Translations under genes and position numbers: made by a program
Notes under the pieces: model-generated
Database searches by the model: none
What the model saw: only the letters and a program-made list of their open reading frames with translations
What the model was told of the DNA's origin: nothing
In this document: positions 1-13,944 of the stretch, piece after piece
Position numbering within the stretch: position 1 is the first letter of the stretch
Layout of the letters: each line of letters begins with the position of its first letter
Source of the DNA: Algibacter sp. L1A34
Lineage (GTDB): Bacteria; Bacteroidota; Bacteroidia; Flavobacteriales; Flavobacteriaceae
Reading direction: 5' to 3'
DNA: 64,000 nt
NCBI RefSeq assembly: GCF_009796805.1
Contig: NZ_CP047029.1
Span: 744,001-808,000 of the forward strand

Positions 1-104
1 TGTAATTTTTGCAAAATACCTAAAAAACTCATACTTTAGCCCCGAGCTTTTTTCTTTCAAGTAGTATATTCTCTCAACCCTCAACAAAGAAAGCTCGGAA
101 AATT

Positions 105-737
105 ATGATAAAATTATTAATAGCAGACAACCATCCTATTACTAGGAAAGGATTAGAGGTGCTTTTTTCCGCCTCATCAAACATCGAAATTGTTGGAAGT
201 TTACAAGATGGAAATGACATCTTAGATTTCATCAGAAAAAACGAAGTAGACATCATTTTAACTGAAGCTGATTTTCCTAAGCTAAATGGATTAACACTTT
301 TACGTTATTTAAAAAATGATTTCCCTGACATTAAAACCGTTATTTTTAGCGGTGAACCCGAAGAAGTTTATGCAATAAACGCTATTAAAGCAGGTGCTTC
401 TGGATTTATTCACAAATCTGTAAATGTTATTACAATAAACGAAGCTATTTTAAAAGTACATGATGGCGGTATTTATTTAAGTAACGATTTAACGCAACAA
501 CTAGCGTTTGGAAACAGAGTAAATAAAGGTTCTGGAACGTTCTACAAAAAATTATCTACTAGAGAAGCAGAAGTTTTAAAGCTTTTAACTATTGGTAGAA
601 AAAACAAAGAAATCTCTAAAGAGTTAGACATTAACGAAAAAACAGTTAGTACTTACAAAGCACGCTTAATGCGCAAACTTAAAGTAACGAACTTGATTGA
701 TTTAGTTAATCAAGCAAAATTAGCCGAACACTTATAG
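105..737 (+). CDS. LuxR/NarL-family response regulator with Glu at the phosphoacceptor site
   Basis: A cytoplasmic DNA-binding transcription regulator of 210 aa. Residues 1-120 form a receiver domain: the acidic pocket starts at D8, S82 is the switch Ser/Thr and K104 the conserved Lys (FIHKS). Residues about 147-210 are a LuxR-type helix-turn-helix (LSTREAEVLKLL, then NEKTVSTYKARLMRKL). At the usual phosphoacceptor Asp position, in ILTEADFPKLNG, the residue is E54, so the protein may act as a constitutive phospho-mimic. No kinase gene is adjacent. It converges on dnaG with a 6-nt overlap of the ends. The domain call is sure; the target genes cannot be seen. Confidence 0.93.
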   Translation: MIKLLIADNHPITRKGLEVLFSASSNIEIVGSLQDGNDILDFIRKNEVDIILTEADFPKLNGLTLLRYLKNDFPDIKTVIFSGEPEEVYAINAIKAGASGFIHKSVNVITINEAILKVHDGGIYLSNDLTQQLAFGNRVNKGSGTFYKKLSTREAEVLKLLTIGRKNKEISKELDINEKTVSTYKARLMRKLKVTNLIDLVNQAKLAEHL

Positions 738-9276: not shown

Positions 9277-9428
9277 AATGATTTGATTTTGATTGATGAT
9301 TTTAATTATTTGACGTTTTATTAACTGTTTTGTTACACTTTAATTTAAAGTTTCAAGTTTTTGAGAATTATTTCTGACTGATAGTTCTTTAAATAGCCGT
9401 TTTAAAACTTCATGTTCCAATTGTACCC

Positions 9429-9525
9429 GCGCTAGGGATAGCAGCGGAAAGCCCACAGCAGAACCAATGATAATTGGGCCTGCGAGGACTTGTAGCGAAT
9501 AGCCCGACCCTTGTGGTAGCGCCCA
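9429..9525 (+). repeat. Dispersed structured repeat, copy A (divergent subfamily)
   Basis: The terminal arms GCGCTA (9429-9434) and TAGCGC (9517-9522) are inverted complements, followed by CC. Internally GCAG/CTGC encloses CCAAT/ATTGG (about 9457-9484), and AGCCCGACCC is shared with the other copies. Copies B-D have different sequence in both stems but the same layout. There is no reading frame. Confidence 0.8.
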
Positions 9526-9570
9526 AAAAAAAATGGGTAATTGATAATGGAAATTGGGCTACCAAATGTT

Positions 9571-9608: not shown

Positions 9609-11306
9609 ATGTCGCAATTATCAGAGCAAGAACTTGTAAGAAGAGAGAAATTAGTAAAATTACGCGCTATGGGCATTAACCCATATCCAGCGGATTTATA
9701 CCCTGTAACCCACACATCGAAATCGATAAAACAGGATTTTGTTGAAGAAAAACAGGTGGTTGTTGCTGGTAGATTAATGGCGATAAACATACAAGGTAAA
9801 GCATCGTTCGCGCAGTTGCAAGACAGCGAAGGCCGTATTCAGGTTTACTTTAACCGTGACGAAATTTGTACGGATGAAGATAAAACAAAGTATAACGATG
9901 TTTTTAAAAAATTACTAGATTTAGGTGATTTTGTAGGTATTGAAGGCGAATTATTCAATACGAAAGTGGGTGAAAAAACCATTCGTGTTAAAGATTTTAC
10001 GCTATTAAGCAAAGCTTTAAAACCATTGCCATTACCAAAAGAAAAAGACGGAAAAGTATTTGATGCTTTTACGGATCCTGAATTACGCTACCGCCAACGT
10101 TATGCCGATTTAGTGGTAAACCCACACGTAAAAGAGGTGTTTGTTAAGCGTACTAAATTATTTAATGCTATGCGTTCGTTTTTTAACGATGCTGGATATT
10201 TTGAGGTTGAAACTCCGGTTTTACAACCTATTCCGGGTGGTGCTGCGGCGCGCCCATTTATTACACACCACAACAGTTTAGATATTCCGTTGTATATGCG
10301 AATTGCCAACGAGTTGTATTTAAAACGACTTATTGTTGGTGGATTTGATGGTGTTTACGAATTCTCGAAAAACTTTAGAAATGAAGGGATGGACAGAACA
10401 CACAACCCTGAATTTACAGCTATGGAAATCTACGTATCATACAAAGATTACAACTGGATGATGGATTTCTGTGAGCAACTTTTAGAGCATTGTGCTGTTG
10501 CCGTAAACGGAACTAGCGAGGCTACTTTTGGTGAGCATAAAATTGATTTTAAAGCGCCTTACGCTCGTGTTACTATGGCAGACTCTATTAAACACTTTAC
10601 AGGGTTTGATATTACTGGTAAAACTGAAGATGAAATTAGAGCCGCTGCAAAAGGCATGCATATTGAGGTGGATGATACTATGGGTAAAGGGAAATTAATT
10701 GATGAAATTTTTGGTGAAAAATGTGAAGGCAACTACATACAACCAACTTTTATTACAGATTACCCAAAGGAGATGAGCCCACTATGTAAAGAACATAGAG
10801 ACAACCCAGAACTTACTGAGCGTTTTGAGCTAATGGTTTGTGGTAAAGAAATTGCGAATGCATATTCGGAATTAAATGACCCTATTGATCAACGTGAGCG
10901 TTTTGAGCACCAATTAAAGCTTGCTAAAAAAGGTGATGACGAAGCTACTGAATTTATTGATGAAGACTTTTTACGTGCATTAGAATACGGTATGCCTCCA
11001 ACATCTGGTATGGGTATTGGTATGGATCGTTTAATTATGTTTTTAACGAATAACCAATCGATACAAGAGGTTTTATTCTTTCCGCAAATGCGACCTGAAA
11101 AGAAAGCTTCTTCGGTTGAATTAAACGACGATGAAAAAGCGTTACTTGCTTTAATTGAAAAGGTAGAGAAAATTGATTTAAATACTTTGAAAACTCAAAG
11201 TGGTTTATCTAATAAAAAATGGGATAAAACTATTAAAGGTTTAACTAAACACAACTTGGCTAAGGTTGAAAAAACCGATGAAGGGTTGTTTGTGGAAGCT
11301 ATATAA
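9609..11306 (+). CDS. lysS: Lysyl-tRNA synthetase, class II, with C-terminal extension
   Basis: Charges tRNA-Lys with lysine using ATP. The 565-aa protein has the N-terminal OB-fold anticodon-binding domain (about residues 55-150) and the class II core with FRNEGMDRTHNPEF (motif 2) and GMGIGMDRLIMFLTN (motif 3). After the usual end of the family near FFPQMRPE there are about 70 extra residues (497-565) that look like a small winged-helix-like domain (LNTLKTQSGLSNKKWDKTIK). I recall longer LysS in Bacteroidota. The gene is monocistronic, with its own -7 box, and its terminator is also the first hairpin of a tandem repeat array. Confidence 0.97.
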   Translation: MSQLSEQELVRREKLVKLRAMGINPYPADLYPVTHTSKSIKQDFVEEKQVVVAGRLMAINIQGKASFAQLQDSEGRIQVYFNRDEICTDEDKTKYNDVFKKLLDLGDFVGIEGELFNTKVGEKTIRVKDFTLLSKALKPLPLPKEKDGKVFDAFTDPELRYRQRYADLVVNPHVKEVFVKRTKLFNAMRSFFNDAGYFEVETPVLQPIPGGAAARPFITHHNSLDIPLYMRIANELYLKRLIVGGFDGVYEFSKNFRNEGMDRTHNPEFTAMEIYVSYKDYNWMMDFCEQLLEHCAVAVNGTSEATFGEHKIDFKAPYARVTMADSIKHFTGFDITGKTEDEIRAAAKGMHIEVDDTMGKGKLIDEIFGEKCEGNYIQPTFITDYPKEMSPLCKEHRDNPELTERFELMVCGKEIANAYSELNDPIDQRERFEHQLKLAKKGDDEATEFIDEDFLRALEYGMPPTSGMGIGMDRLIMFLTNNQSIQEVLFFPQMRPEKKASSVELNDDEKALLALIEKVEKIDLNTLKTQSGLSNKKWDKTIKGLTKHNLAKVEKTDEGLFVEAI

Positions 11307-11330
11307 GTTTCACCATTTTATAACATACTA

Positions 11331-11365
11331 AAAAAGCCCGCAATTTTATAAATTGCGGGCTTTTT
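11331..11365. terminator. lysS terminator, hairpin of unit 1
   Basis: GCCCGCAATTT, a short loop and AAATTGCGGGC, with five A before and five T after: a strong symmetrical intrinsic terminator directly after lysS. Confidence 0.88.
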
Positions 11366-11575
11366 AACTAACTAACCAATTGTATGAAATTTAACTTCTA
11401 AGGTTAACTACTCCTTAAATTCCATACAAAGAAACACCCTAAAAATGGCACGACAATAGGTGTTTGGATATCTTTAACATGCTTTCTCCGTATTTTATAT
11501 TTTCTTTAAGAGAACACAGAACTAGCTGTTAATTTTTTAAGAAACCAGCCGGGAATCACGCCATTTTAAAGCATT

Positions 11576-11615
11576 AAAAAAGCCCGTAATTTCTAACAAG
11601 ATTACGGGCTTTTTT
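11576..11615. terminator. Hairpin of unit 2
   Basis: GCCCGTAAT (from 11582) and ATTACGGGC (to 11609) around TTCTAACAAG, with A- and T-runs at both sides, so it can act in both directions. Confidence 0.8.
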
Positions 11616-11835
11616 GACTAACTAACTAACTTATCAAATTTTATGAAAAATTTAAATTCAAGATTAACTACTTCTTAAATTCTATACAAAGAAACACCCT
11701 AAAACCGAAACCATTATACTTATTTAGATTTGTTTAACATGCTTTTGATGTTTTTTATAATTTCTTTAAGATAACAGATCCCGATGTGTTAATTTTTTAA
11801 GAGAAGTGATATAAAACACACCATTTTACAACAAT

Positions 11836-11874
11836 AAAAAAGCCCGTAATTTCTAACGAGATTACGGGCTTTTT
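11836..11874. terminator. Hairpin of unit 3
   Basis: GCCCGTAAT (11842-11850) and ATTACGGGC (11861-11869), with flanking A- and T-runs. The stem is identical to that of unit 2 and the loop differs at one base. Confidence 0.8.
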
Positions 11875-12098
11875 AACTAACTAATTAACTAATCAACTTT
11901 TATGAAAATTAAATATTAAGGTTAACTACTCCTTAAATTCTATACAAAGAAACACCCTAAACTCGAAACTATAATCCTTGTTTAGATTTGTTTAACATGC
12001 TTTGCTGTAGTTTTATCTTTTCTTTAAGAATAAAGACCAGCACTTGTTAATTTTTTAAGAAAACTCGAACTGTTTGGACCTAAAACATTTGACATAAA

Positions 12099-12662
12099 TT
12101 ACTTTTTTTCAACATAATCTTTAATCGAGATATCATCAATAATAACATCTTCTAAAACAGCTTCTCCTTCTTGCACATAAACTAAGGCATGTGTATTGTT
12201 TGGTAACGAATCGCGCTGTCTATCTCTTACTGCAGTTTCCGCTGCGTAGGCTTTTGTTTCTTTCATATAATATTTATTGAAAGGAAACCGGATAACTAAC
12301 TCTTTCGAGTACGTTGAATACCAATACGCTTTTGCTTTCACATAATCGTTAGTATTACGTTCTAAAACATGTTTACTTACTGCGTCTATTTTAGCATAAC
12401 CTAACGAGTCTGTTGTTAAATAAACAAGAACCTCTTCATTACGCTCCCATAAGGAGTCTTTAGTTTTAAAATTGCTTACATCAAAATTAAGGGTGATATA
12501 TTTTCCTTTAAATGGATCGCTCGGATCTACAGGCCGTGTTTTAAACTTATAGGCCACACCTGTTTTTAACACCGTTTCTTGACCAAAAATCATTTGAGCA
12601 GGAATAGCAAGTTGCACCAACGCAACAAGTATAAATAGAATGAATATATATTTAGTTTTCAT
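12099..12662 (-). CDS. GDYXXLXY-domain membrane-anchored protein
   Basis: A protein of about 187 aa with one N-terminal membrane segment (IFILFILVALVQLAIPAQMI), the rest probably periplasmic. The family motif appears as GKYITLNF following DPSDPFKGKYI. I place the start at 12662 (MKTKYIFILF), where the hydrophobic segment begins properly; an upstream ATG at 12686 would add eight residues and increase the overlap with the previous gene. Its gene overlaps the DUF2157 gene by a few bases, a pairing well known in Bacteroidota and Proteobacteria. The molecular function is unknown. Confidence 0.85.
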   Translation of the reverse strand: MKTKYIFILFILVALVQLAIPAQMIFGQETVLKTGVAYKFKTRPVDPSDPFKGKYITLNFDVSNFKTKDSLWERNEEVLVYLTTDSLGYAKIDAVSKHVLERNTNDYVKAKAYWYSTYSKELVIRFPFNKYYMKETKAYAAETAVRDRQRDSLPNNTHALVYVQEGEAVLEDVIIDDISIKDYVEKK

Positions 12663-12666
12663 AATT

Positions 12667-13944
12667 TTAAATTTTAGGAGTTTCATTATTTTTTCTCTTT
12701 TTAAGCATTATATAATTCGTTAAAAAGAAACCAGCGCCAACACAAACAAACAATAATCCCCGAAAAACAAAACTGATATCCGTATCGAAAAAACGACAAG
12801 TAATTAATGCCGTAATAATAAGCAGCCCATAGTTTAAAACACCTAAATGATACCTATCGGCACCAATTTTAACTGCCATAACTCCTAAAGCTAAAACAAA
12901 CAAATTGTTTAATATTACAGCTATTGAACCATCTACTAATCCTAGATAAAACAAAATAGTAAAACATATAAAAGTCACCTGAAAAAGATTAACGTTAGAA
13001 ACCCCCTTTTTAATAATAGAATTCACTAAAAGTACAGAAGCAGCAATAAAAAAGATTAATGTGATAACAAACTCTTGTGATTCAAAATTATATCCTTGGC
13101 TAAAAAAACCTTCCCAAAACCATTTAAAACTAGCTGTTAAAAGCATACAAACCGTTCCTAACGAGCCAATAATTAAATATCCATTTCGTCTTAATTTCTC
13201 ATTAGCGTAAAATGGCATTCTACCAATATTATACAACAAGCCAAACAAAACAACATACATTAAAAAACCTGTTTGCTCATCATGATCTATAAAAGCACCT
13301 AAAACAATAACCAAACTTAAAGGCGTAAGCCAATTTAAAACAGAGCTTATATTTTTACCTTTTCCTAATTTAATATAATAAGGCAAATACAAACCTAAAC
13401 CTACCAAATATAACCATGGCGTTTTACTACTGGTAAAATAACCGAATGAACACGCATAACAAGTTATAAAAATAAGATGCAAAAGTGCTAAAGCATTCGA
13501 CTTTAGTAAATAGATGAGAGGCAAACAAAGTAACACCCAAGTTAAAAGATAACTACTTAAATCTCCTGGTATATTATAAATCTGGCTAACCAAAGCCATA
13601 CTTGCCCCTACTGCAAAAAACAGAAATGCTCCAGAGGCTTCTTTCCAAGTTTCACTTTTACGGCGTAAAATAGAATACCCAACAAAGAACTGCCCAATAA
13701 CTAATGGTAAAAAAGCAAAAGCAGTTTTTATAGTTCGCGAAAAATGATCCCAATTATGAGCTAATATTAGAATAAGCCCCAACCCTACCAATGTAGAACC
13801 TAAAACAGCAAATACTGTAAACAAACGGTTTGAAGTTTGAGGTTCCTTAGATTGATAATAATTTTCAATTTTAAAAGCAACATCTTGAGATATCACTTTA
13901 TGTTTAACAAGCTCTTTTATATCGCTTTGAAGTTTTGATGACAT
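12667..13944 (-). CDS. DUF2157 multi-pass membrane protein
   Basis: A 425-aa inner-membrane protein. The first 30 residues are a soluble helical DUF2157 start (IKELVKHKVISQDVAFKIEN), followed by roughly 12 hydrophobic segments from residue 42 to 417. It is translationally coupled to the GDYXXLXY gene, and the two probably form one membrane complex. A TATCTTTA -7-like box lies about 20 bases upstream on the minus strand. The biochemical role is not known. Confidence 0.85.
   Translation of the reverse strand: MSSKLQSDIKELVKHKVISQDVAFKIENYYQSKEPQTSNRLFTVFAVLGSTLVGLGLILILAHNWDHFSRTIKTAFAFLPLVIGQFFVGYSILRRKSETWKEASGAFLFFAVGASMALVSQIYNIPGDLSSYLLTWVLLCLPLIYLLKSNALALLHLIFITCYACSFGYFTSSKTPWLYLVGLGLYLPYYIKLGKGKNISSVLNWLTPLSLVIVLGAFIDHDEQTGFLMYVVLFGLLYNIGRMPFYANEKLRRNGYLIIGSLGTVCMLLTASFKWFWEGFFSQGYNFESQEFVITLIFFIAASVLLVNSIIKKGVSNVNLFQVTFICFTILFYLGLVDGSIAVILNNLFVLALGVMAVKIGADRYHLGVLNYGLLIITALITCRFFDTDISFVFRGLLFVCVGAGFFLTNYIMLKKRKNNETPKI

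Follow-up and report, generated by a model that had tools for sequence, protein, structure and literature searches.

The 64,000-nucleotide stretch of Algibacter sp. L1A34 DNA analyzed here (the window) carries an array of three units at positions 11331–12064, 3' of lysS. Judged by sequence comparison, the array is part of a conserved minus-strand gene family of the sRNA type, tandem in the genus of the window and without a match in Rfam; promoter and terminator are conserved on the minus strand, and no ORF is. The account favored for the array, which is given a probability of about 0.5, is that it comprises three minus-strand sibling sRNA genes, once a protein gene, which would damp SusC expression in the manner of FopS. 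Each unit would be transcribed from a promoter of its own, in which sites A, B, and C are spaced almost invariantly and a sigma-A-like box closes with TTTG, and would give a terminated RNA of ~92–106 nt. The ancestor would have been a small secreted repeat-protein gene beside lysS, of which the sites upstream, a UUAGUU-rich segment toward the 3' end, and the terminator would have been retained; the reading frame would have been lost, the core promoter changed from an ECF-like to the TTTG type, and the unit then multiplied within the genus. UUUUCAU and the UUAGUU repeats are proposed to pair with an AACTAA box and the start codon of SusC-type receptor mRNAs, translation being damped by the pairing, most likely as in Bacteroides FopS, and a regulator would bind A-B-C.

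The threefold array after lysS that had been reported in the preliminary description was confirmed by Tandem Repeats Finder (11365–12064, period 260, 2.7 copies, 81% matches, score 857; in the rest of the window one further row, of 29 bases), by a repeat search, which recovered a 156-nt core three times (two copies 77% to the first) as well as the hairpin copies, and by a search of the own genome. The units are 77–85% alike and spaced by ~260 bp. A search of the 4.64-Mb genome with unit 2 as the query revealed no fourth copy; unit 2 matched itself, unit 3 (85%), and unit 1 (77%), followed by short matches. The alignment of the units bore out the conserved blocks with diverged spacers, and the claim that every unit read on the minus strand ends with its own terminator hairpin was correct: each has a GC hairpin between A and T runs, able to terminate on both strands. 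The features of the locus are as follows; the sRNA ends were set from ~5 nt after the TTTG box (start inferred) to the end of the terminator, and the hairpins are inverted repeats with A/T runs.

9609–11306, plus strand: lysS, ORF of 565 aa, convergent neighbor of the array.
11331–11422, minus strand: predicted sRNA of unit 1, ~92 nt, fold z −5.12.
11577–11682, minus strand: predicted sRNA of unit 2, ~106 nt, fold z −5.42.
11837–11940, minus strand: predicted sRNA of unit 3, ~104 nt, fold z −5.74.
11331–11365, either strand: terminator hairpin of unit 1, which on the plus strand could serve lysS as well.
11577–11615, either strand: bidirectional terminator hairpin of unit 2.
11837–11874, either strand: bidirectional terminator hairpin of unit 3.
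11366–11390, minus strand: putative seed of unit 1, AUUUCAUACAAUUGGUUAGUUAGUU, from pairing tests and motif counts.
11616–11650, minus strand: putative seed of unit 2, UUUUUCAU...UUAGUUAGUUAGUC, from pairing tests and motif counts.
11875–11908, minus strand: putative seed of unit 3, UUUUCAUAAAAGUUGAUUAGUUAAUUAGUUAGUU, from pairing tests, motif counts, and per-base pairing coverage.
Minus strand of the predicted sRNA units: region from TACAAAGAAACACCC to the terminator.
11424–11543, minus strand: promoter of unit 1 (A 11543–11527, B 11511–11493, C 11479–11463, TTTCTTTG 11434–11427), model E=1.4e-19 (unit in the training alignment).
11684–11803, minus strand: promoter of unit 2 (A 11803–11787, B 11771–11753, C 11739–11723, TTTCTTTG 11694–11687), E=2.3e-19 (unit in the training alignment).
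11942–12061, minus strand: promoter of unit 3 (A 12061–12045, B 12029–12011, C 11997–11981, TTTCTTTG 11952–11945), E=1.8e-19 (unit in the training alignment).
12099–12686: convergent gene beyond the array.

On the other side of lysS, 5' of it, a GC-richer stretch at 9425–9535 contains AGGGATAGCAGCGGAAAGCCC-like words, and we take it to resemble an intergenic repeat of Bacteroidota.

Two units were searched by BLAST against 99 relatives, 58 of which gave some match at E ≤ 0.01, mostly short. The array was found in all four other genomes of the genus and weakly in three genomes of other genera (G021, G023, G040), in all seven 3' of lysS. Copy number varies among relatives as had been predicted, with three units in the window, two each in G001, G004, and G040, two and a solo unit in G003, one and a remnant in G002, and one each in G021 and G023. 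In a tree of units, unit a of G001 and that of G004 were placed together (99/99), and likewise unit b (99/98); the window's unit 3 joined unit a of G001/G004 (81/93, modest), and the three G003 copies clustered (93/92). Thus, certain copies seem to antedate the species, and others to be lineage-specific. The solo unit of G003 (L039:8529–8746) lies ~5 kb from lysS and adjoins the end of an ORF, presumably a glutamate-1-semialdehyde aminotransferase.

An exact-pattern scan of named genomes yielded 23 stretches, from Algibacter, Flavivirga, Mariniflexile, Gaetbulibacter, Lacinutrix, uncultured Flavobacteriaceae, and one Bacilli MAG; the last match (L068) had dissimilar surroundings and was dropped as chance. 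lysS was within the fetched stretch in 21/23 of these loci and absent from the L064 and L068 stretches. A sequence-only promoter model, R1, was built from 32 sequences; it covers A, B, C, and the TTTG region, with UUAGUU outside the model. In the own genome its strong matches were the three units only, the next best having E=0.08. In the family, 105/397 genomes had matches at E ≤ 0.01, and 57 genomes had 65 places at E ≤ 1e-5 (next match 1.2e-4); classing into coding and noncoding covers these 65 places. The promoter was followed by no related ORF in 49 places (noncoding, 42 genomes) and by a secreted repeat protein of 128–208 aa in 16 (coding, 16 genomes), G302 being in both groups. Altogether 45/65 places face lysS at 0.2–3.5 kb (39/49 noncoding, 6/16 coding), one is on the strand of lysS, and 19 have no lysS in the fetched stretch. 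A noncoding unit of G271 (C1:516030) is ~184 kb from lysS and one of G104 (C1:2337819) is ~3 kb off, so the link to lysS is not universal. Two noncoding units ~1.1 kb apart (L186 of G197, 98868 and 99997) were seen in another genus, a looser doubling.

Read on the minus strand, the blocks follow in the order A (CTTAAAAAATTAACA), B (TCTTAAA...), C (TGTTAAACATTTCTAAA), and a box ending in TTTG. With A at 0, pattern-selected loci have B at +29/30, C at +63/64, and TTTG at +109..111, except L054, L062, and L064, which are without TTTG there and for which the script picked an earlier TTAAA, site C being placed by alignment. In the promoter alignment, spacer sequence is free to change at nearly constant lengths, and A–C is the best conserved part. 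The conservation of A, B, C, and TTTG is partly by choice, because the named loci were picked with a pattern that sites A and B had to fit exactly (C and TTTG being outside the search pattern) and R1 spans A to TTTG. TTTG was found at +47..49 from C in 42/42 noncoding places with a scorable C (shuffles ~0.12, 13-position window), the remaining 7/49 having no site C by strict search and being left out.

The strand of the genes is settled by comparison as the minus strand, since the promoter geometry is kept there and the same promoter precedes minus-strand protein genes in other genera. The preliminary description had favored a family of sibling small RNAs; this is still the best reading of the array, and the strand has now been chosen on these two grounds. 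It had also pointed to TAGATTTG followed by TTTAACATGC on the plus strand, which are present in units 2 and 3 and would be the start of plus-strand small RNAs; alternatively, the SusC-leader-like stretch of the plus strand (AACTAACTAAC...ATGAAA) would make plus-strand decoys mimicking SusC leaders. Either version is highly improbable. The two boxes are the complement of minus-strand site C and as a promoter are not conserved: TAnnTTTG is missing from unit 1, which has TTTGGATATCTTTAACA, and is not kept outside the genus, since the usual form there is TTTAGAAATGTTTAACA. Further, the mini-ORFs after ATGAAA are not conserved, the outermost unit is without a strong plus-side terminator in 6/7 relatives read by eye (G003 has one), and the module is a minus-strand promoter in coding relatives. 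A leader peptide on the plus-strand ATGAAA was rejected, since the window units have ORFs of 5, 11, and 5 aa that by eye are unconserved in relatives.

Folding of each of the three predicted RNAs is far stronger than that of its dinucleotide shuffles (z −5.1 to −5.7, 0/200 each), mostly owing to the terminator. Across 11 same-genus units (10 distinct), the 5' hairpin and the terminator are kept, with 98.4% of cells paired, and both-side changes were found in 5 stem pairs (shuffled mean 1.0, 0/500 reach it): 4 of the 13 terminator stem pairs, each in at least one of the 10 distinct units, and one pair in the 5' hairpin. Further pair types in the same-genus units were no more numerous than in shuffles. 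Among the noncoding places, 46/49 have a terminator-like hairpin, and all 46 have 2–5 UUAGUU in the preceding 60 nt. In the stretch +118..+240, at least two TTAGTT were counted in 46/49 (fewer in G023, G384, and G383), with a UUAGUU mean of 3.2 vs 0.18 shuffled. The junction pattern of TTAGTT and terminator was found in 7/10 genomes with the promoter and 0/10 chosen without it; the G048 match is on a contig other than that of its promoter. UUCAUA occurs in 20/49 noncoding places (expected 3.6) and, outside the genus, in 12/41 (expected 2.7), where UUUCAU occurs in 7/41 (expected 3.5). In units 1 and 3, the UUAGUU seed can be covered by folding of the 5' segment, and the seed differs between genera.

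A further possibility is that A-B-C is a protein-binding DNA array beside lysS, with terminators that only insulate and no functional RNA. It would agree with the near-constant site spacing and with conservation being highest over A–C in the promoter alignment (for A and B partly through selection), but the succession of TTTG box, UUAGUU repeats, and terminator is the same across nearly all noncoding places, and A-B-C is also upstream of a protein gene. We consider a pure DNA element very unlikely.

The protein of the coding places belongs to a family of secreted repeat proteins of ~128–208 aa with repeats like EVYEIEEDVDLGFNTKDYLPENFNPLKGKGDIDW (L059:3099–3542, L062:3082–3585, L087, L089, L107). 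Two members were scanned and had no Pfam or NCBIfam match over the cut-off. The family was found in 19/149 relatives drawn and in 0/5 genomes of the window's genus. GTAAC-N15-17-[CA]GTC, in our reading an ECF-like core, is present in 14/16 coding places vs 1/49 noncoding, and TTTG near +47..49 from C in 4/16 coding places; a CGT box at −10 is given for an ECF motif of Flavobacterium psychrophilum in PMC9723704. Decayed ORFs were recognized at L070, L060, and L052, which match the DNA of the intact gene (E 3e-11, 2e-9, and 3e-7) with broken frames and with alignment scores above all 30 shuffles; L063 was narrowly over its shuffles (score 25, shuffle maximum 22). In G302, the coding and noncoding forms stand in tandem. 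The intact genes L059, L069, and L089 have 3' UTRs with TTAGTT repeats and a terminator, and L054, L062, and L064 are without TTAGTT repeats.

The RNA probably derives from the secreted-protein gene, given the shared promoter module, the three decayed ORFs, and the tandem of both forms in G302. We infer ORF loss in at least one lineage and, for Algibacter itself, the same direction from protein to RNA; no ORF remnant was seen in the Algibacter units. That the descent took place at the lysS site can be seen clearly in part of the set only, because 10/16 coding places are without lysS in the fetched stretch and most coding places are without UUAGUU before the terminator; for part of the set, descent from the protein gene is well supported. 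The ORF remnants in L052, L060, and L070 would also fit a dying pseudogene locus, recently duplicated and functionless now. Such decay is hard to reconcile with a noncoding form present in 42 genomes with rigid promoter and UUAGUU, with the both-side changes at 5 stem pairs, or with the modest grouping (81/93) of unit 3 with unit a of G001/G004, by which this copy, if no other, seems to have arisen before those species, and it has very little chance of being correct.

The target idea, that the 3' part of the RNA is antisense to SusC leaders, arose from a plus-strand BLAST match to a SusC leader. When the whole RNA body was tested on 1476 start regions (44% of the genome), pairing was no better than for dinucleotide shuffles, rather worse. 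In the SusC-set tests, as in the FopS alignment below, shuffles kept base composition only. The repeat segment of unit 3 gave a mean of −12.7 vs −6.8 with six SusC-like genes found by regex; this set was small and hypothesis-led, and therefore two further SusC sets were drawn. With 14 TonB-type receptors drawn separately (phmmer), 0/30 shuffles reached the difference (p 0.002, 0.008, and 0.058). All 25 TIGR04056 genes over the cut-off in the whole genome were then compared with other genes, a random 500 of 1456. The repeat segment of unit 3 paired with them at −10.5 vs −7.0 kcal/mol; for each unit, 0/40 shuffles gave as large a difference (p 2e-7, 1e-5, and 4e-4 for units 3, 2, and 1). Averaged over the three seeds, the leaders 4211348, 596357, and 558244 had predicted energies of −13.5 to −14.6 kcal/mol. 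The whole RNA body gave −15.8, −15.7, and −13.4 vs −11.4, −11.8, and −11.6 in the same unit order (differences reached by 0/20 shuffles in each case; p 3e-8, 3e-6, and 0.004). The sets overlap: 13/25 TIGR04056 genes were new with respect to the two earlier sets, and 9 of these 13 carry AACTAA.

AACTAA is within 45 nt 5' of the start codon in 16/25 SusC genes vs 137/1456 others (Fisher 7e-11). The start codon was part of the predicted duplex in 23/25 SusC genes vs 310/500 others for unit 3 and in 24/25 vs 341/500 for unit 2, with a small difference for unit 1 (14/25 vs 230/500). Predicted duplexes of unit 3 rely most on UUUUCAU and UUGAUUAGUU, over the box and the start codon. ATGAAA gene starts are commoner in SusC (13/25 vs 129/500 others), which favors any UUUUCAU-bearing RNA. 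The pattern AACTAACTAA-N4-34-ATGA had 12 matches in the own genome, three of them the array, vs 3 for the reversed pattern; of the nine matches outside the array, five lie before an ORF of 100 aa or more. The word AACTAACT was found in 7/1476 start regions and equaled by 37/420 permutations, and AACTAA was barely first among 30 permutations in the start regions.

Two genomes without a detected promoter (G022 and G015, weak partial promoter matches at most) were used as a control, for which 20 SusC stretches were fetched and six dropped for having no clean start. AACTAA was present in 5/14 usable leaders (own genome 16/25, Fisher 0.11) and ACTAA in 6/14 (own 20/25, 0.03), and these leaders pair as strongly as those of the own genome (p 0.28–0.84). 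As leaders there carry the box and pair equally, the leader box is more widespread than the RNA, which may exploit a pre-existing leader mark. Action of the RNA on SusC is plausible. A less likely alternative is that the units are minus-strand sibling sRNAs whose main target is something other than SusC, the RNA acting on other mRNAs or by protein binding and the AACTAA box serving something else. This would suit the AACTAA leader box where the RNA was undetected, the absence of a general start-region preference, and a seed that varies between genera. Against it stands the SusC pairing bias, seen in partly overlapping sets, above all shuffles, and over the box and start codon.

In Rfam, no match in the window was obtained at gathering thresholds. 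A permissive search of 11100–12200 gave 85 weak matches at E ≤ 10, many around the hairpins. Flavo-1, suggested in the preliminary description as a family to be checked, had no covariance-model match at gathering and was not among the 85. BTnc005 had the lowest E (1.3e-5), yet with 33.5 of 174.8 bits, and GibS (RF04182) had 19.8 bits vs a gathering score of 115; both were rejected. For FopS, no family was matched at gathering in the window and none of that name was among the 85 matches. By local alignment to the published FopS consensus (R1' seed), 85, 19, and 24 of 500 shuffles were as good for units 3, 2, and 1, a weak likeness. Of the FopS layout, a single-stranded 5' seed followed by a terminator hairpin, the units have the terminator; their putative seed adjoins it, and their 5' part can fold.

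The known system nearest in mode of action is FopS of B. thetaiotaomicron, a family of paralogous sRNAs with 14 genome copies and a seed at the 5' end (PMC11697453). The published seed contains UUUUUCAU, antisense to AUGAAAAA, and the regulation has been shown experimentally; FopS is marked by pairing with SusC mRNA start regions, binding by the RRM protein RbpB, and translational repression (PMC11697453). The array is like FopS in its multicopy short RNAs with a terminator, in UUUUUCAU within the seed, and in SusC start-region pairing, predicted only for the array. It is unlike FopS in being tandem at one locus rather than having 14 genome copies, in UUAGUU repeats that adjoin the terminator instead of a 5'-end seed, and in its other sequence with no Rfam match, its sites A-B-C, and its apparent protein-gene origin. 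No RRM protein was found by strict regex in 44% of the genome. The array RNA probably works like FopS; it is called like FopS, not a FopS, because the sequence likeness is weak and Rfam membership was not found.

Other known sRNAs can be likened in part. GibS of B. thetaiotaomicron (RF04182), as described in PMC11697453, is also an sRNA that pairs with start regions. In 3'-UTR-derived sRNAs (reviewed in PMC9438474), function is preserved at the 3' end, terminator included, as would hold for the array; unlike them, the array seems to have lost the ORF between promoter and 3' segment and would be a stand-alone gene. Rfp18 of F. psychrophilum, a flavobacterial sRNA too, is tied to metalloprotease mRNAs via its third stem-loop (PMC9723704), and is likened by description only. 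No paper on the array was found in the literature by title or abstract, which does not prove that none exists. OmrA and OmrB, tandem sibling sRNAs acting on outer-membrane receptors, share adjacent sibling copies with the array; they are of another phylum and are likewise compared by description. They are named as a paralogous pair in PMC11697453.

Going further, a gene for a secreted protein may have become a regulator of the SusC class by dropping the protein, exchanging an ECF-like core promoter for a housekeeping one, keeping upstream sites and 3' end, and multiplying the RNA in tandem; the family would then be separate from FopS and have come to the same target solution in another class of Bacteroidota. 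We put this forward as a conjecture that is possible but somewhat doubtful.

Flavobacteriaceae are major marine polysaccharide degraders that use SusC importers, and to our knowledge their sRNAs have been little studied. The array adds a conserved unnamed RNA, present in 42/397 sampled family genomes and often at one locus, which makes it a defined target for a knockout. The locus preserves apparent stages from protein to RNA, namely the intact gene, the decayed gene, the RNA only, and both side by side; as far as we know, such a set of stages is uncommon. If the SusC pairing is true, multicopy sRNAs would control glycan importers outside Bacteroides too, a solution perhaps arrived at separately.
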